A stretch of DNA of 64,000 nt from the NCBI GenBank assembly GCA_003228115.1, contig QEVV01000001.1, positions 124,001-188,000 of the forward strand, given 5' to 3'. Source of the stretch: Chloroflexota bacterium (lineage in GTDB: Bacteria > Chloroflexota > Dehalococcoidia > Lucifugimonadales > SAR202-VII-2). Of this stretch, positions 4,912 to 50,821 are shown piece after piece; within the stretch, counting starts at the first letter, position 1, and every line of letters starts with the position of its first letter. Below the pieces are notes generated by a model, which saw only the letters and a list, made by a program, of their open reading frames with translations, did no database searches and was not told the DNA's origin. Both the position numbers and the translations under genes were made by a program.

Positions 4912-5532
4912 ATGACCCAAACCGATGAAACCACGCCCAGAGCCATCGTAGGCAAAGAGGCCCCTGACTTCGAAGCGCCCGTCTTTGACCAAGGCGGCTT
5001 CAGGAATCTCAAACTCTCTGACTACCGTGGCCATTGGGTCATGTTGTTCTTTTACCCCGGAGATTTCACCTTCGTTTGACCAACGGAAATCGCAGCGGTC
5101 GCTGCTAGGCACGGCGAGTTTCAGGACCTGGACATCCAGGTCCTTACCATTAGCGTGGACAGCAAGCACGTCCACCAGATGTGGGTCCAATACGAGCTCT
5201 CCAAAATGGTTGGCGGGGACATTCCTTGGCCAATGGTTTCCGATCCCGGCGGACGCGTGGGACGTCTCTACAACGTCTTCGACGAGGATGAGGGCATTGA
5301 TATCCGGGGCCGTTTCATCATTGACCCCGACGGTGTCATTCAGGCAATGGAGGTCTTAACGCCCCCTGTGGGTCGCCGCATAGATGAGACGATCCGCCAG
5401 TTCCAAGGATATCAGCACGTACGCAGCACAGGCGGTGTGGAAGTGTGTCCCGTTGACTGGACCCCAGGCAAGGGGACACTCAAGCCCGGCCCCGAACTCG
5501 TGGGCAGAGTGTGGGAGAGCTTCAAGGGCTAG
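4912..5532 (+). CDS. Peroxiredoxin, AhpC type, selenocysteine-containing (UGA at 5077-5079)
   Basis: This is a 206-residue typical 2-Cys peroxiredoxin that reduces hydroperoxides with a thiol or selenol. The frame starts at ATG 4912 after a GAGGAGG site and runs to 5532 through one in-frame TGA at codon 56. That codon stands exactly in the peroxidatic position: [14 protein letters not shown] matches the family motif FTFVCPTE. The flanking frame is continuous and conserved on both sides (KEAPDFEAP, then [12 protein letters not shown]). The resolving Cys179 lies in VCPVDW, and it is the only cysteine. The call is recoding of UGA as selenocysteine, supported by the hairpin at 5092-5105. A nonsense mutation is the alternative, but hitting precisely the catalytic codon in three genes of one window makes that unlikely. 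Ordinary gene callers would report only a fragment starting near 5155. Confidence 0.9.
5092..5105 (+). promoter_or_regulatory. Putative bacterial SECIS hairpin in the peroxiredoxin gene
   Basis: The stem GCAGC/GCTGC encloses the loop GGTC, and the loop begins 17 nt after the UGA at 5077-5079. A G at the start of the apical loop with adjacent G-U, and a distance of about 16-37 nt from UGA, are the known features of bacterial SECIS elements bound by SelB. Confidence 0.75.
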
Positions 5533-14094: not shown

Positions 14095-14167
14095 TCCTGG
14101 TTTCCAGTTTGGAAGCCCACCCAATCGACGCCGCTGGTGTTACCATATGACCGAGGGTTGATGGTTT

Positions 14168-14195
14168 TTGACATTGTTGATTTACTAACTATACA
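14168..14195 (+). promoter_or_regulatory. Sigma-70-type promoter for the SufT-like gene
   Basis: TTGACA at 14168-14173 and TATACA at 14190-14195 are separated by 16 nt in a locally AT-rich stretch, 40 nt before the GTG start at 14236. This is one of the clearest -35/-10 pairs in the window. Confidence 0.65.
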
Positions 14196-14235
14196 ATCCT
14201 GACATGCAAGGCTATTCGAACTACGGGGGTGCCTG

Positions 14236-14556
14236 GTGGTCCAAGCAAACAAGGTAACGCAGGAAGAGGTCTTCGAGGCCCTTAGAGATGTCTACGACCC
14301 GGAGATTCCCGTCAACATCGTGGACTTGGGCTTGGTCTATGCCGTCGACATTGACGACAGTAACCAGGTTTATGTTGAAATGACCCTCACGGCCGCAGGC
14401 TGCGGCATGGGCCCCTTCATTGCTCAAAACGCCGAATGGGCAATCACAGAAATCGAAGGCGTCGAGGAAGCCCACGTTGAGGTCGTATTCGACCCTCCCT
14501 GGAGTCCAGAGCGCATCACCGATGAGGGGCGCAAGCTCCTAGGCATGGACGACTAA
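14236..14556 (+). CDS. MIP18/DUF59 iron-sulfur assembly protein (SufT-like)
   Basis: This 106-residue MIP18-family (DUF59) protein is related to SufT and PaaD, which help mature Fe-S proteins. The signature DPEIPVNIVDLGLVY lies near the N-terminus, and MTLTAAGCGMGP carries the conserved Cys. The start is GTG at 14236 after a GGGGG site. The Mrp-type ATPase gene downstream belongs to the same pathway, which supports a role in cluster carriage, although 235 nt separate them. A good promoter lies just upstream. Confidence 0.85.
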   Translation: MVQANKVTQEEVFEALRDVYDPEIPVNIVDLGLVYAVDIDDSNQVYVEMTLTAAGCGMGPFIAQNAEWAITEIEGVEEAHVEVVFDPPWSPERITDEGRKLLGMDD

Positions 14557-23503: not shown

Positions 23504-23977
23504 CTACTCTTCTTCGACGATCTCAGCGGCCCATTCCACAGCAATCCCACGCTCCAGGCTGCGATACACCGGGCACCCTTGGGCGTGGACGCTCACCGCT
23601 CGCTCAGCCTCAGCCCGCTTGCCCTTGGGCACCGTCAAATGGTAGTTGAGGCGCACCTTCGAAATGACGATCACCTTCGGCTCCAGCCGCTCGACCTCCA
23701 TCTCCACATCTGTGTAGACCTTGCTGGGTACCGCCGGAATGTCTCTGGCGCTGAGCGCACCGCCCAGCGTTCCGGTCATTCAGGCCGCAAGGGCCATCGC
23801 CACATGGTCCAAGGTTAGGGGTCGTTCCACCTCTGGCTCCACACCATAGTGTTCAGCCACACCACCCCTGACGCCGTACACCACAGGCTGATCCTCAAAA
23901 CCCTCTATGACTGCCCTGCGCACCCGCTCTGGCTCCAAATCAACGTGCATGTGAGAGCGATGAATGATCTCACCCAT
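23504..23977 (-). CDS. OsmC-like peroxidase, selenocysteine-containing (UGA at 23780-23782)
   Basis: This is a 157-residue OsmC/Ohr-fold protein read through one in-frame TGA at codon 66. Before it the frame reads TLDHVAMALAA and after it MTGTLGGALSARDIP. OsmC proteins have their peroxidatic Cys exactly there (AALAxCxxGTL). The second catalytic residue is Cys135 in AQGCPVYRSL, and it is the only other redox residue. The start at 23977 follows GGGGAGGGG. The family reduces organic hydroperoxides with dithiol donors. A hairpin at 23749-23769 fits a SECIS element. Ordinary annotation would show two adjacent short ORFs meeting at 23780. Nonsense mutation is the alternative, less likely because of position and hairpin. 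Confidence 0.9.
23749..23769 (-). promoter_or_regulatory. Putative bacterial SECIS hairpin in the osmC-like gene
   Basis: On the minus strand CGCTGGGC pairs with GCTCAGCG (8 bp, one G-U wobble) around the loop GGTGC at 23757-23761, whose first base is 19 nt past the UGA. G at the loop start and G-U within it match bacterial SECIS rules. Confidence 0.78.
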
Positions 23978-24188
23978 GAACCCCTCCCCAAACAAAATTG
24001 GGCCAACGCTAGCAACAGGCCCAGGGGCTGTCAAGGCGCATCGCCGTTGACACCCGCCCCTACCCCACCTACGATTATCCTAGGCCGTGCTAGATGGGGA
24101 GCTAGCGGTGCCCTGAACCCGCAATCCGCTTTAGCGGGGTTGAATTCCCTCCCGAGGTTCGTCTCCGGTCTTCGTTTGCCTCAGGGAT

Positions 24189-24300
24189 AGCTGGCCGGGC
24201 CCTGCGCGACAGAAGCCTGTGAACCCCGTCAGGCCCGGAAGGGAGCAGCGGTAAACGGAGTCTCTCTGGGTGCCGCAGACAAGCCTGACTAAGGCTCCCC
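24189..24300 (+). ncRNA. ffs: Bacterial signal recognition particle RNA (small type)
   Basis: The universally conserved SRP domain IV is present: GTCAGGCCCGGAAGGGAGCA then GCGGTAA, with the GGAA tetraloop and the asymmetric loop bound by Ffh. The flanks GTGAACCCC and GGGTGCCGCAGA pair in the usual way. Ends are approximate, set by outer pairing. The partner receptor gene ftsY is at 32704. The RNA lies just upstream of rsmA. Confidence 0.9.
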
Positions 24301-24361
24301 TCAGTGCGGCGAGGCTGAAGCTCCGGATCGAAGGAGGGTGCACGGCCTAACAGCCTCCCTT

Positions 24362-29893: not shown

Positions 29894-31126
29894 CTAGCCT
29901 CTCGACTTTCTAAATTCTCGAACCCATCCCACCTCATCCTCCCGCGTTGACACCTCCCCATCTAGGCGGGCGTCACGAAGGCGCTGCAACATTTCGCCCA
30001 GACGTGGCCCCACCACTACCCCTAGGCCTTGCAAGTCGTCGCCACTCAGCATGGGTTGAATGTGACGCCATTCGCCCAGATAGCTCCGCACTAGCTCAGC
30101 CACCCGATTATTACGCTCCAACGCTGCCGCCACCTGGAGGGCTTTCTCGGACTGGCCTTTAAGTAAGCGGACCACCTTGCTGGGACGGATGTCTTTCTCA
30201 TCCAGCGTCGCCCGGAGTGACGGAAAGGCGGCCACCTGCTCGAGCAAGGCCACGTCCCCTCGACTAAGACTTAGGCGAGATGCCAAGGCCTTGGCATCCT
30301 CCGGTTCGAGGCCCCAGACCATCGCCGCCAGCAACAGGGCCGAATCACGGCTCTGAGCTTGCAGGCTTCGAACGTTGCCGGATATGGCCCTTTGGTCACC
30401 CAAAGCCGGGTGGATGGCTTGAAGCAAACCAAGGTCACCAGCCAAACGAAGGCACGCCGCAGGATCGGGCTCTTGCAGAAGGCGAAACAACTCGTTGTGC
30501 AGGCGATCGCCGCTGATGGTGTCCAACATGCCGGCGTCCCGCCGCAGGAGGGCCTCCGTCTTCGACTCAAAACCAAAGCCCAAGCGAACAGCGAAACGCA
30601 CCCCGCGAAGCATTCGCGTAGCATCGTCCTGAAAACTAATGTCATGGAGGACCCGGAGCAAATGGGAGTCTATGTCCGCCTGACCACCGTGGGGGTCCAG
30701 CAAAAGACCAAACTCCTTGCCGTGTAGCGCCACCGCCATCGCATTGACTGTGAAATCCCGGCGAGCCAAGTCCTCCAGGATAGTTGCGGGCCCAACCGTG
30801 GGGAGTGCTCCGGGATGCTTGTACCGCTCGATACGAGCGCTGGCCACATCAACCTCAATACCGGCTACTGCCACCTTGGCCGTGCCGAACGGAGATTCGG
30901 CAACGAGAGCGCCCCCGGCCCTTTCTGCCAGCGCATGGGCAAAAGCGGCTGCATCGCCAACCACCGAGAAGTCAAGATCAACGACGGCACGCTTCAGCAT
31001 GAGATCTCGCACCGGCCCACCAACCAGGTACAGCTCCACCCCAAGGTTTGAAGCCACCGATTGGGCCTCGGCAACTACATGGTTCAGGTGTGGAGGCAGG
31101 TCATGGAGCAAGGGAGAAACGTTCAT
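29894..31126 (-). CDS. tRNA nucleotidyltransferase/poly(A) polymerase family protein
   Basis: This 410-residue class II nucleotidyltransferase either adds CCA to tRNA or polyadenylates RNA. The head motif LVGGPVRDLML with DLDFSVVGD (catalytic Asp pair), the RRDFTVNAMAV motif and RMLRGVRFAVRLGF are all present. A C-terminal helical tail of about 150 residues is divergent. The track start at 31255 would overlap the opposite gene, so the ATG at 31126 (NVSPLLHDLPPHL) was chosen. It converges on ogg with a 6-nt gap and is divergent from the DsbA-like gene. CCA versus poly(A) specificity cannot be settled from sequence alone. Confidence 0.88.
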   Translation of the reverse strand: MNVSPLLHDLPPHLNHVVAEAQSVASNLGVELYLVGGPVRDLMLKRAVVDLDFSVVGDAAAFAHALAERAGGALVAESPFGTAKVAVAGIEVDVASARIERYKHPGALPTVGPATILEDLARRDFTVNAMAVALHGKEFGLLLDPHGGQADIDSHLLRVLHDISFQDDATRMLRGVRFAVRLGFGFESKTEALLRRDAGMLDTISGDRLHNELFRLLQEPDPAACLRLAGDLGLLQAIHPALGDQRAISGNVRSLQAQSRDSALLLAAMVWGLEPEDAKALASRLSLSRGDVALLEQVAAFPSLRATLDEKDIRPSKVVRLLKGQSEKALQVAAALERNNRVAELVRSYLGEWRHIQPMLSGDDLQGLGVVVGPRLGEMLQRLRDARLDGEVSTREDEVGWVREFRKSRG

Positions 31127-31235
31127 GGCGGCTCTTCGAAAGGAGTAGTGCGATGGTATCACAGGGTCTTTGACGGAGCCTTCAGCCGAGCCTACAATGG
31201 CCCTATCGCAGGGATTGTTGGTACAGGAGGCACAC

Positions 31236-31868
31236 ATGGCCGAACACAAAGACAAGCTGGTGGTCTACTTCGACTACTCCTGACCCTTTGTTTACAATGC
31301 AGCAGTTTGGCTGCAAAGGGTTCAGCAGGCGCTCCCCGGACAGCTTGAGTTGGAATGGAAGAGCTTCGTGCTCCAACAGATCAACAGCAAGGAAGGACCG
31401 GAATGGAAAACATGGGACCAGCCGGAGAGCGAACAGAAGAGCTTTCCATCGCTTCGAGGCGGCGTGGCCGCAAGAAAGCAGGGAAGTGACGCCTCCAACC
31501 GGTTCCACCTAGCCATGCTCAATGCCCGCAACAACGATCGCATAGCCCTCAATGAAAGGGATGCAATCATGAACGTGGCCAGTGACGCGGGGCTCGACAT
31601 GGCACAGTTCGAAAAGGACTACGAGAATCCCGACACCACCAGCACCGTGGTGCAGGAACACGAAGAAGCGGTCAGTGAGCACGGCGTTTTTGGCACCCCC
31701 ACCTTCGTCTTCGAAGGCGGGCACGCTGCTTTCCTCAAGACATTGGTACCCCCCGAGGGCGAGGAAGTAAGCGTCTACGAGGGGTTCATGGCCCTCATCG
31801 GCCGGCATCCCTACATCGGCGAGATCAAGCATCCGCAGCCGCCATGGCCGAAGGGAGTGTTCGACTAA
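31236..31868 (+). CDS. DsbA-like thioredoxin-fold protein, selenocysteine-containing (UGA at 31281-31283)
   Basis: This 210-residue DsbA/FrnE-like oxidoreductase is read through one in-frame TGA at codon 16. The context VVYFDYS-TGA-PFVYNAA matches the family's FxDxxCPxCY site, so the UGA stands at the nucleophilic Cys of CPxC, while the second Cys is Val. The thioredoxin-fold cis-proline loop is intact (GVFGTPTFVF). The rest contains no cysteine at all, leaving the selenol as the sole redox residue. The ATG at 31236 follows AGGAGG. A strong hairpin follows the UGA. It overlaps the rnc start by 25 nt. Without recoding, callers would start at 31350 and lose the active site. Function could be reduction or glutathione-type chemistry rather than disulfide formation; no signal peptide is seen. 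Confidence 0.9.
31284..31320 (+). promoter_or_regulatory. Putative bacterial SECIS hairpin in the DsbA-like gene
   Basis: Directly after the UGA, CCCTTT (31284-31289) pairs with AAAGGG (31315-31320). Inside it, GCAGC pairs with GCTGC around the loop AGTTTG (31304-31309), which starts 21 nt past the UGA. A two-part stem with G-U in the apical loop fits the bacterial SECIS pattern well. Confidence 0.82.
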
Positions 31869-32587
31869 ACCTCGTGAACCTCGCGCACCGGCCGGGTCTG
31901 GAGATTATAGAAGCCAACCTGGGCTATACCTTCAAGGAGCGAAAACTCCTTGAAGAGGCCTTGGTGCATCGCTCCTATCCCAACGAGAATCCAGACGCCG
32001 ATGTCAAAGACAATGAGCGTCTGGAGTTCCTAGGCGACGCCTTCATCGGCCTGGTTATTGCGAACCACCTCTACACTCGCTTCCCCGCTCTACACGAAGG
32101 TCACCTTACAGATCACCGCTCGGCGCTGGTACGGCGGGAAACGCTAGCTCGGTTAGCTATCTCGCTTGATCTCGGAACCCATCTCCTGATGGGTTCTGGC
32201 GAGGAAGCCAGCGGCGGACGGGAACGGTCTTCCATTCTTGCCGGCGTCCTTGAAGCTGTGCTAGGCGCAGTCTTCCAAGACCGTGGCTACGCCGTCGCAC
32301 GCGGCTTCGCTCTACGGCTGTTCAAGGATGAACTACGCCGCCTGATAAGGGACGGCGTGCCCAAAGACCCAAAGAATCACCTGCAAGAAACCATTCAAGC
32401 GCAGGGCATGGCTCCCCCAACCTATCGGACCGTGTCGGAAGAGGGCCCGGAACACGCCCGCCTCTTCGAGATCGAGGTTCTAGTGGAAGATGTCGTCCTG
32501 GGCCGCGGTCATGGCATGCGCAAGGTCGATGCCCAACGGGACGCCGCCCGAGAGGCGCTTCTCAAGCTAGCTGAGGCCCGAGACTAA
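31844..32587 (+). CDS. rnc: Ribonuclease III
   Basis: RNase III cuts double-stranded RNA in rRNA maturation. The signature NERLEFLGDAFIGLV lies near residue 45, with the second acidic site in LEAVLGAVFQDRG. The C-terminal double-stranded RNA-binding domain spans about 170-245. The ATG at 31844 overlaps the DsbA-like gene; a GTG at 31874 is an alternative. The order rnc-ftsY is common because both feed ribosome and SRP function. Confidence 0.95.
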   Translation: MAEGSVRLNLVNLAHRPGLEIIEANLGYTFKERKLLEEALVHRSYPNENPDADVKDNERLEFLGDAFIGLVIANHLYTRFPALHEGHLTDHRSALVRRETLARLAISLDLGTHLLMGSGEEASGGRERSSILAGVLEAVLGAVFQDRGYAVARGFALRLFKDELRRLIRDGVPKDPKNHLQETIQAQGMAPPTYRTVSEEGPEHARLFEIEVLVEDVVLGRGHGMRKVDAQRDAAREALLKLAEARD

Positions 32588-32703: not shown

Positions 32704-33714
32704 TTGGGCTGGCCATTTCGACGGAAAAGCAAAGACGAAGCCCCGGAAGAGCAGCAGCGGGAACAAGAACAGATCCTTGAGCAGTCCCAGCAGGGGCTTG
32801 AAAGGACGCGCCGTACCTGGTTTTCCAAAGTAGCCCACCTTTTCCGATCGGCGGAGATCGGCGACGAACTTTGGGAAGAACTCGAAGAAGCCCTGGTTTC
32901 CGCCGACGTAGGAATGGAGACCACCTCCCGTCTTCTGGAACGTGTGCAGAAACGAGCGGATGAGGAAAACCGCGCCGACCCCCCTTCCGTGCTGGCCTTC
33001 CTCAAGGACGAGATGGTGTCCATGCTGGATGCAGCCAGTCCACCCGATGAATCGACGAGCGAGCCAACAGACGGACCCATGGTGGTCTTGGTGGTAGGCG
33101 TGAATGGAGCGGGGAAGACCACAACCATCGCCAAGTTGGCGAACCGGGCAGTACAGGACGGCAAAAAGGTCATCCTGGGCGCTGCCGACACGTTCCGGGC
33201 CGCCGCCATTGACCAGCTTGAAGCCTGGGGCAAGAGACTGGGAGTCGAGGTAATAGCCCATCAGCCTGGCAGCGACCCCGGCGCAGTGGCCCACGATACT
33301 TTGGAGGCCGCCCGGGCTCGAAAGGCGGATATAGCCATAATCGATACCGCCGGACGGCTTCACACGAAGACCAACCTCATGGAAGAGCTCAAGAAAGTGT
33401 ATCGCGTAGTGCAGCGCCTAGACCCAACAGCGCCCCACCAGACCCTGCTGGTGCTGGACGCTACTACCGGGCAGAACGGCCTGACCCAGGCACATCATTT
33501 CACAGACGCCGTCAACTGCGACGGTGTTGTCTTGGCCAAACTGGACGGTACGGCGAAGGGTGGGATTGTCCTGCCCATTGCCGAGGAGTTGAAACTACCG
33601 GTGCTGTTCGTTGGCACTGGCGAGGGCATCAATGACCTGACGCCCTTTGATCCACGCATCTTTATCGAGGCACTCTTCGCCTCGGAGTATGAGCAAGCCG
33701 CGCCTTCGCGCTAA
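32704..33714 (+). CDS. ftsY: Signal recognition particle receptor FtsY
   Basis: FtsY is the SRP GTPase receptor that docks ribosomes to the membrane. The start is taken as TTG 32704, six nt after AGGAG, giving the usual GWPFRRK opening; an ATG 30 codons upstream (32614) gives an unlikely hydrophobic leader. An acidic N-terminal A region is followed by the N domain, the P-loop GVNGAGKTTT near 133-142, DTAGRLHTKTNLMEEL and LAKLDGTAKGG. Length 336. It works with the SRP RNA at 24189. Confidence 0.95.
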   Translation: MGWPFRRKSKDEAPEEQQREQEQILEQSQQGLERTRRTWFSKVAHLFRSAEIGDELWEELEEALVSADVGMETTSRLLERVQKRADEENRADPPSVLAFLKDEMVSMLDAASPPDESTSEPTDGPMVVLVVGVNGAGKTTTIAKLANRAVQDGKKVILGAADTFRAAAIDQLEAWGKRLGVEVIAHQPGSDPGAVAHDTLEAARARKADIAIIDTAGRLHTKTNLMEELKKVYRVVQRLDPTAPHQTLLVLDATTGQNGLTQAHHFTDAVNCDGVVLAKLDGTAKGGIVLPIAEELKLPVLFVGTGEGINDLTPFDPRIFIEALFASEYEQAAPSR

Positions 33715-49844: not shown

Positions 49845-50669
49845 CTATGCTTTGAACGCCTGCACCTTGAGGCTCGTCGCTATGCTCCCGATCGCGTCTA
49901 GTTCAGCTTGCGGCACCTTGAGTTCATCCCTCAGCGCGTCCGCCAAGGCTGGCTCGAAGATCTCATCCATTGGATAGACGGTTTCGTCCACAACCTCCAC
50001 ATCGCTGAAGCCTGCGTCCCGAATGGCCTGCAGATAGGCGTCCTTTAGGACGGCCCCTGAGAGACAACCGACATAGGCGTCGATGGACTGGAGCACGGCA
50101 TCCGGTAAGTCGCCAAGTAGCACGATGTCAGAAACGGCTAGCCTGCCTCCTAGCTTGAGCACTCGGAAGGCCTCCTGAAACACCCTGTCCTTTTCTGGCG
50201 ACAGGTTGATGACGCAGTTGGAGATGACCACATCAACGGATGCATCGGCAACCGGTAGGGCCTCTATCTCGCCCAGGCGAAACTCAACGTTGTCGAACCC
50301 AACCTTGGCAGCATTCTCCCTGGCCCGCTTGAGCATCTCATGGGTCATGTCTACGCCAATCGCTCTGCCTGTAGGCCCTACCCGCTTGGCTGCAAGGAAG
50401 CAGTCGATGCCGGCACCTGAACCCAGATCCAAAACGGTTTCGCCTTCCTTCAAGGAGGCTAGGGCAACGGGATTGCCACAGCCGAGTCCCAGGTTGGCGC
50501 CTTCAGGAAGCTCGGCCAACTCAGCGGCGGAATAGCCGATAGCCTCGCTAGCAGCCTGGGGATTGGCTGCGGCAGTGCCGCAGCAGCCAGGTTCGCAACA
50601 CGAGTCTGAGTAGACAGCTATCTTGCCGTAGGCCTGCATAACCGCACTTCTTACATCTTGCTGGGTCAT
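49845..50669 (-). CDS. arsM: Arsenite methyltransferase (ArsM/AS3MT-like)
   Basis: This 274-residue SAM-dependent methyltransferase matches bacterial ArsM, which methylates As(III) to volatile or excretable forms. SAM motif I is DLGSGAGIDCFLAA near 81. Three conserved arsenic-binding cysteines fit: Cys64 (GLGCGNP), Cys152 (NCVINL) and Cys202 (GCLSGA). The N-terminus has an additional Cys-rich patch (SCCEPGCCG, residues 23-31) that may help load arsenic. AGAAGGAG precedes the ATG at 50669; a longer in-frame start (50723) lies in repeat DNA. An AbrB-type gene lies upstream in the same direction. Confidence 0.92.
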   Translation of the reverse strand: MTQQDVRSAVMQAYGKIAVYSDSCCEPGCCGTAAANPQAASEAIGYSAAELAELPEGANLGLGCGNPVALASLKEGETVLDLGSGAGIDCFLAAKRVGPTGRAIGVDMTHEMLKRARENAAKVGFDNVEFRLGEIEALPVADASVDVVISNCVINLSPEKDRVFQEAFRVLKLGGRLAVSDIVLLGDLPDAVLQSIDAYVGCLSGAVLKDAYLQAIRDAGFSDVEVVDETVYPMDEIFEPALADALRDELKVPQAELDAIGSIATSLKVQAFKA

Positions 50670-50716
50670 AGAAGTTCTCCTTCTTGGTGTGCACTTCCAA
50701 CCGCCGCACCCACTCA

Positions 50717-50821
50717 CCGTCATTCCGGCGAAGGCCGGAATCCAGTGGCGTATCGGCCAATCCGACCTATGCGTACTATAGTCAGACCCTTCCTGGGTTC
50801 CGGCTTTCGCCGGAATGACGG
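50717..50821. mobile_element. Miniature inverted-repeat element (MITE-like)
   Basis: A 105-bp unit is bounded by imperfect 29-nt inverted arms (CCGTCATTCCGGCGAA at one end, its complement at the other) with 27 of 29 pairs. It has no gene. It sits between the AbrB-like gene and arsM, inside what would otherwise be one operon. Such CCGGAATGACGG palindromes are widespread in bacterial genomes. No target-site duplication was established. Confidence 0.65.

Follow-up and report, generated by a model that had tools for sequence, protein, structure and literature searches.

Many thioredoxin-fold selenoproteins retain an internal resolving cysteine (UxxC), and two kinds of DsbA-like enzyme, kappa-class GST and HCCA isomerase, use a Ser nucleophile and depend on glutathione. 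The DsbA-like selenoproteins described in the Sargasso Sea study ('DsbA form 1') are of the UxxC kind (PMC1088965). The Global Ocean Sampling survey of 2008 tabulated another kind, 'DsbA 3', under pfam01323 with the motif UxxV, comprising 5 sequences with 72 Cys homologues, and its text, as far as searched, carries nothing on Cys absence, distribution, synteny or function of 'DsbA 3' (PMC2398784). A 2026 review lists a 'DsbA-like protein form 2' with the motif DxxUP and the domain PF01323 (PMC13188914). Two cysteine proteins are also relevant here: DR2335, described as having a single conserved Cys and as being without a known function (PMC8945050), and NCgl2478 of C. glutamicum, in which removal of Cys24 abolishes the reduction of insulin but leaves that of mycothiol mixed disulfides (PMC8280269).

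We analyzed a DsbA-like gene in a 64,000-nucleotide stretch of DNA, hereafter the window. The features of the locus are collected in Table 1.

Table 1. Features of the DsbA-like selenoprotein locus, in window positions
Feature	Positions	Strand	Evidence
tRNA nucleotidyltransferase / poly(A) polymerase family gene, divergent, upstream	29894..31126	-	Pfam PF01743, PF12627
AGGAGG, ribosome-binding-like, 5 nt ahead of ATG 31236	31225..31230	+	sequence read directly
DsbA-like selenoprotein gene, motif D-Y-S-U-P-F-V, no Cys	31236..31868	+	translation with TGA=U; Pfam PF01323
Sec16, in-frame TGA (single U of ORF 31236-31868)	31281..31283	+	translation; 53 orthologues
SECIS candidate, apical loop with G31305 and U31306	31283..31321	+	inverted repeats; fold z; family-wide z
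Val19 codon (+3), site of the resolving Cys in CxxC relatives	31290..31292	+	orthologue comparison
Pro155 in G-V-F-G-T-P-T, cis-Pro position of thioredoxin folds	31698..31700	+	invariant in alignment A1
G-E-I-K-x-P-Q-P-P-W-P, C-terminal family signature	31821..31850	+	alignment A1
rnc (ribonuclease III), directly downstream, possible 25-nt overlap	31844..32587	+	Pfam PF14622, PF00636, PF00035
ftsY-type SRP receptor gene, after rnc	32704..33714	+	Pfam PF00448, PF02881

The gene and its surroundings

Translation of positions 31236-31868 with TGA read as selenocysteine (U) yields 210 residues, MAEHKDKLVVYFDYSUPFVYNAAVWL...KHPQPPWPKGVFD, in which Pro17, Phe18 and Val19 follow Sec16 and zero Cys codons occur. 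This agrees with the original prediction of a UGA-coded Sec, a Val in the place of the second Cys and no Cys elsewhere. The protein matched the Pfam DSBA family PF01323 at 67.8 bits (cut-off 25.6), a domain present in 43/43 family members scanned, and its sole NCBIfam match was weak and partial. Invariant positions of alignment A1 include D13-x-x-U16-P17 near the N-terminus and E196, K198, P200, P202, W204 and P205 in the C-terminal signature. Residue 99 (positions 31530-31532) is Asn in the window protein and His in 49/54 aligned sequences (ARHxxR). No signal sequence was seen, and on balance we place the product among cytoplasmic members of the DsbA superfamily, of the UxxV type.

The gene rnc is the same-strand downstream neighbor in 26/30 orthologous loci and ftsY lies downstream in at least 11/30, with flanks limited to 1.5 kb. 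Upstream neighbors vary, and a homologue of the window's upstream gene was found in 6 loci only. Neither rnc nor ftsY offered a functional hint, and the position beside them probably reflects a housekeeping transcript more than function.

Two further selenoprotein genes were seen in the window. A PrxU-type Sec peroxiredoxin gene lies at 4912-5532 (+), with the motif F-V-U-P-T-E, its TGA at 5077-5079 and a match to NF040737 of 332.9 bits (cut-off 270). An OsmC-like selenoprotein candidate with A-A-U-M-T-G-T (PF02566) occupies 23504-24034 (-), and its product resembles the known UxxT OsmC-like type. The window also encodes an ArsM-type arsenite methyltransferase at 49845-50723 (-; PRK11873, 353.7 bits), whose Cys-rich N-terminus SCCEPGCC comes from Cys codons and not from TGA, and a bacterial large signal recognition particle RNA at 24085-24345 (+; 163 bits). 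A SufT-like protein is encoded at 14137-14556 (+; TIGR03406, 126 bits, below cut-off), and the TGA in the upstream open-frame extension of its gene, ahead of the domain, is probably a plain stop.

The TGA codon in orthologues

Orthologues were sought in 98 genomes of the same order and, after removal of one UxxC cousin, 53 full-length sequences were obtained. The codon at the Sec16 position is TGA in 48/53 of these and Cys in the remaining 5, a distribution at odds with the lineage-specific nonsense mutation that the original prediction had held up as its possible refutation. By this comparison, the UGA at the nucleophile position is held by selection. The removed cousin (L069, 126-731, - strand, in G004) is a separate DsbA-like selenoprotein of the same order that has the motif UPFC, with its second Cys kept, and aligns at 28% only.

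The source genome has a tRNA-Sec, named by ARAGORN too, together with SelA, a SelB over its cut-off and a Sec-containing SelD, whose gene itself holds a TGA. SelB is over cut-off in nearly all TGA genomes; in G046, the exception noticed, the contigs carry no more than a fragment of it. Two of the five Cys-form genomes, G027 and G057, are without SelA and SelB over the cut-offs, and G085, a member of the same taxonomic family, has SelB and the Sec form. In the other three Cys-form genomes (G007, G044 and G076) the Sec machinery is still there. That the locus is no selenoprotein gene at all, its TGA being a nonsense mutation or lying ahead of a shorter gene (ORF 31350-31868, open from TTG 31350), is extremely improbable and is contradicted by the exact codon TGA in 48 orthologues, besides the Cys codon in the other five, the conservation that extends upstream of the TGA to the invariant D13 and the full Sec machinery of the genome.

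A candidate SECIS element

A SECIS candidate with paired outer and inner stems had been proposed for this gene. Its outer arms, ACCCTTTG (31283-31290) and CAAAGGGT (31314-31321), pair at 8/8 positions and its inner arms, TGCAGC (31298-31303) and GCTGCA (31310-31315), at 6/6, as the proposal requires. The RNA folds at -16.4 kcal/mol with a z of -2.80 against dinucleotide shuffles, and an equally good fold is reached by just 1.8% of synonymous recodings. By itself this signal is suggestive; together with the orthologues, the Sec machinery and the family-wide signal it is well beyond chance.

The family-wide signal came from comparing the 42 nt after the TGA with synonymous recodings. Across the 48 Sec forms the natural sequence was more stable (mean z -1.18, SEM 0.13), whereas seven segments farther down the same genes gave z values of -0.35 to +0.09 and the same 42-nt test on the five Cys forms gave +0.14. 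The inner-stem pairs 19-32, 20-31, 21-30 and 22-29 persist in 45-47 of the 48 Sec forms, compared with 1-3 of the five Cys forms, and pair 21-30 shows a double change from G-C to A-T in 5 sequences, some of them related. When the 3′ arm was slid by -3, 182/240 cells were still paired, against 200 in the SECIS register. The pairing percentage alone does not discriminate, so the synonymous-recoding test was used and inner-stem pairing was dropped as sole proof of a SECIS.

Counted from the U of UGA, loop positions 25 and 26 are G in 43/48 and T in 48/48 Sec forms. The E. coli fdhF element has G23 and U24 in its loop, and the candidate resembles it in position and in this G and U. Taken together, these features qualify the in-frame hairpin after the UGA as a candidate bacterial SECIS element. 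Since 48 orthologues carry the TGA, the Sec machinery is complete and the fold signal extends across the family, 31236-31868 is almost certainly a genuine selenoprotein gene.

The hairpin also appears to leave a mark on the protein. Positions +5 to +10 in the order's Sec forms are largely N-A-A-V-W-L, with Ala at +7 in 38/48 and Val at +8 in 43/48. Only one of the five Cys forms keeps A-V at these two positions (L049, which branches within the Sec forms in the tree), and the other four read Y-M, Y-I, G-Y and Y-P. In other families of the phylum, A-A-V at +6 to +8 was found in 7/7 UxxV and 0/16 CxxV proteins among the matches listed. With A-A-V marking the Sec forms and largely missing from the Cys forms, some of what looks like protein conservation downstream of Sec probably stems from constraint on the RNA. 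Val +3 is no such imprint, since every Cys form of the order retains it. The putative Ala-Ala-Val imprint is new here and makes the UxxV family a neat example of protein sequence shaped by an RNA element within its coding region.

The absence of a partner cysteine

The +3 position, where a resolving Cys would stand, is Val in 48/53 orthologues and Ala in the other 5, which belong to one genus, and elsewhere in the phylum, Cys orthologues from other families have Val +3 too, as CPFV or CPYV. The Cys homologues with CxxV number 5 in the order and 16 among the phylum loci listed. The original prediction had been prepared to yield to a variable Val position; Val or Ala is found in 53/53, and CPFV and CPYV in the other families point the same way. 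The reading of Val as a loss of Cys peculiar to this gene was rejected on these grounds. Nor is a second Cys conserved at any other site: even the most frequent Cys column unites only 9/54 sequences, and at least 31 of the 48 Sec forms are without any Cys. The comparison identifies Val (or Ala) at +3 as a family hallmark and the lack of a resolving Cys as a conserved family property. The CxxC or UxxC pair of a classical DsbA/FrnE dithiol enzyme is missing from the window protein, with Val19 and no other Cys, and the earlier claim that disulfide exchange by a Cys pair is impossible here is supported by the Cys-free sequence and by the family.

A search for homologues with other motifs, which had been suggested as a check, found UxxV, CxxV and UxxC forms. 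The nearest clades in the wider phylum carry CPFV, CPYV and UPYV, followed by CPxA and one UPWA (L129), and CPWC and UPWC forms (the latter L131 and L132, further Sec forms) are among the more distant phylum matches. Deep nodes of the tree are weakly supported, and one CPWC group is placed among CPxA proteins; the motif of L082 is CPYA, its tree label CPMH being mis-picked. One genome (G059) has a tandem pair of UPWV selenoprotein genes, at 492-1142 and 1451-2080 of L046. A contig scan with the single window protein as query returned distant CxxC proteins only, and searches of viral contigs and of phages gave nothing useful.

Fold

A family profile run against the PDB gave as its best match 7dk9/7dka, which are the native and C24S forms of DR2335 of Deinococcus radiodurans, at an E of 4.8e-25 over 196 residues. 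In the alignment to 7dk9, Sec falls on the Cys of that protein and Val19 on an Ala. An AlphaFold model built from five sequences, those of the window protein and of four remote CxxC proteins, reached a pLDDT of 64.5 with an unreliable tail, and a single-sequence model (pLDDT 41.8) was of no use. In a structure search, the five-sequence model also returned DR2335 first (TM about 0.58, with 26-27% identity in the alignment to the model). Lower places went to kappa GST and to HCCA isomerase and FrnE, the latter two having been named for comparison in the original prediction.

We also considered membership of the Rv2466c-like family PF22234, which 24/43 family members match at E<=0.001. The window protein scored 24.0 bits, under the Pfam cut-off of 27, and has no CPWC motif, and this assignment was rejected.

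Proposed mechanism and alternatives

The protein offers a single selenolate and a cis-Pro loop but has no resolver of its own, and on this anatomy we favor, as the overall explanation, a one-selenol redoxin of the UxxV DsbA type with an external resolver. The selenolate would attack an oxidized sulfur of the substrate, such as a mixed disulfide or sulfenic acid, to form a selenenyl-sulfide, which an external thiol, either a low-molecular-weight thiol or thioredoxin, would open to restore the selenol. An external thiol would be needed because there is no internal resolving Cys, and in a family conserved across the order without one it must be such a thiol that closes the cycle; we consider resolution by an external thiol very likely. 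The proposed cycle is like the one-Cys half-reaction of glutaredoxins and of Rv2466c/NCgl2478, and since that half-reaction is documented for NCgl2478, action on mixed disulfides is favored. Sec may add a faster rate and keep over-oxidation reversible, which would suit an enzyme without a protective internal disulfide.

As for the reductant, the bacillithiol gene BshC was found in 0/59 genomes and GCS2-type glutathione synthesis in 0/30 relatives, and matches to MshC stayed under the cut-off and probably represent cysteinyl-tRNA synthetase. Candidate donors that remain are thioredoxin, coenzyme A, cysteine, glutathione made by other types of synthesis and some undescribed thiol. With BshC and GCS2 absent and MshC under cut-off, the UxxV family gives a clean handle on which thiol resolves.

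The protein seems somewhat better explained as a thiol-exchange reductase than as a peroxidase or a transferase. A one-Sec peroxidase modeled on glutathione peroxidase or the one-Cys peroxiredoxins, in which the selenolate reduces peroxides to give a selenenic acid that two external thiols resolve, would not require a second Cys, and the Sec peroxiredoxin and OsmC-like Sec protein encoded in the same window indicate that Sec-based peroxide defense is in use here. However, dedicated peroxidases are already there, the protein has neither the TxxU motif of peroxiredoxins nor the UxxT of GPx, and the invariant cis-Pro loop and the DsbA fold are features of thiol exchangers; we judge a peroxidase unlikely.

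The lack of a second Cys is shared with kappa GST and HCCA isomerase, both members of the DsbA superfamily, and weak profile matches to 3fz5 (E 1.2e-8) and 1r4w (E 8.6e-4), with model matches to 3rpp and 3fz5, would fit a transferase- or isomerase-like role without net redox change, in which the selenolate, or the pocket around it, either activates a thiol cofactor or holds an electrophile in covalent linkage. Yet the nucleophile of those enzymes is Ser and here it is Sec or Cys in 53/53, the GCS2 result in the relatives speaks against a glutathione cofactor, and both enzymes match far less well than DR2335. Membership of these families was rejected on the nucleophile and on the poorer match, and the role itself is improbable. 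Handling of soft metals or metalloids, with the single selenolate binding As(III), Hg(II) or selenite species, is very improbable: the ArsM gene in the same window is 18 kb off and unlinked, there is no second conserved soft ligand, and the conserved neighbor is rnc.

Comparison with known systems

Returning to the one-selenol redoxin, the closest structural counterpart is DR2335, which shares the DsbA-like fold and a single conserved nucleophile (CPYA) and differs in its Cys for Sec, its Ala for Val and the absence of a full GEIKRPQPPWP tail. With one conserved selenol or thiol on a DsbA-like fold, the window family is of the same one-Cys design, and DsbA-like relatives with a single Cys, in the motif CPxA, are frequent in the phylum and in Deinococcus. 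We tentatively raise the possibility, which we hold to be doubtful at present, that the CPxV, UPxV, CPxA and UPxA proteins of the phylum and Deinococcus form a separate one-nucleophile class, resolved by low-molecular-weight or protein thiols, in which Sec was repeatedly gained and lost and the SECIS dictates the Ala-Ala-Val of the active-site helix at +6 to +8.

Rv2466c and NCgl2478 (the DsbA-Mrx1 cluster, PF22234) are likewise cytoplasmic DsbA-like reductases; they use mycothiol and have a resolving Cys in CPWC or CPFC, whereas the window protein has UPFV. FrnE and the UxxC DsbA-like selenoproteins belong to the same superfamily and share the Sec or Cys followed by Pro, but their motif includes a resolving Cys of its own. 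In kappa-class GST and HCCA isomerase the DsbA-like fold likewise lacks a CxxC pair, and their sequence match is weak.

Among described selenoproteins, 'DsbA 3' has the same Pfam domain, Sec at the nucleophile position and Val at +3, a likeness at the level of motif and domain. The window family shows PF01323, a TGA-coded Sec with Val +3 and CxxV Cys homologues, as 'DsbA 3' does. The invariant D13-x-x-U16-P17 fits DxxUP, so 'DsbA-like protein form 2' is probably the same kind as the window gene. The original prediction thus stands as to the selenoprotein and the absence of a resolving Cys, which proves to be conserved, but not as to the implied singularity of the gene, since UxxV was in the 2008 table and one-Cys CPxA relatives are common. 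Assigned by motif and domain, the gene would belong to a known, uncharacterized UxxV kind, to which this sequence comparison adds an order-wide distribution, the lack of a conserved second Cys and a position upstream of rnc.
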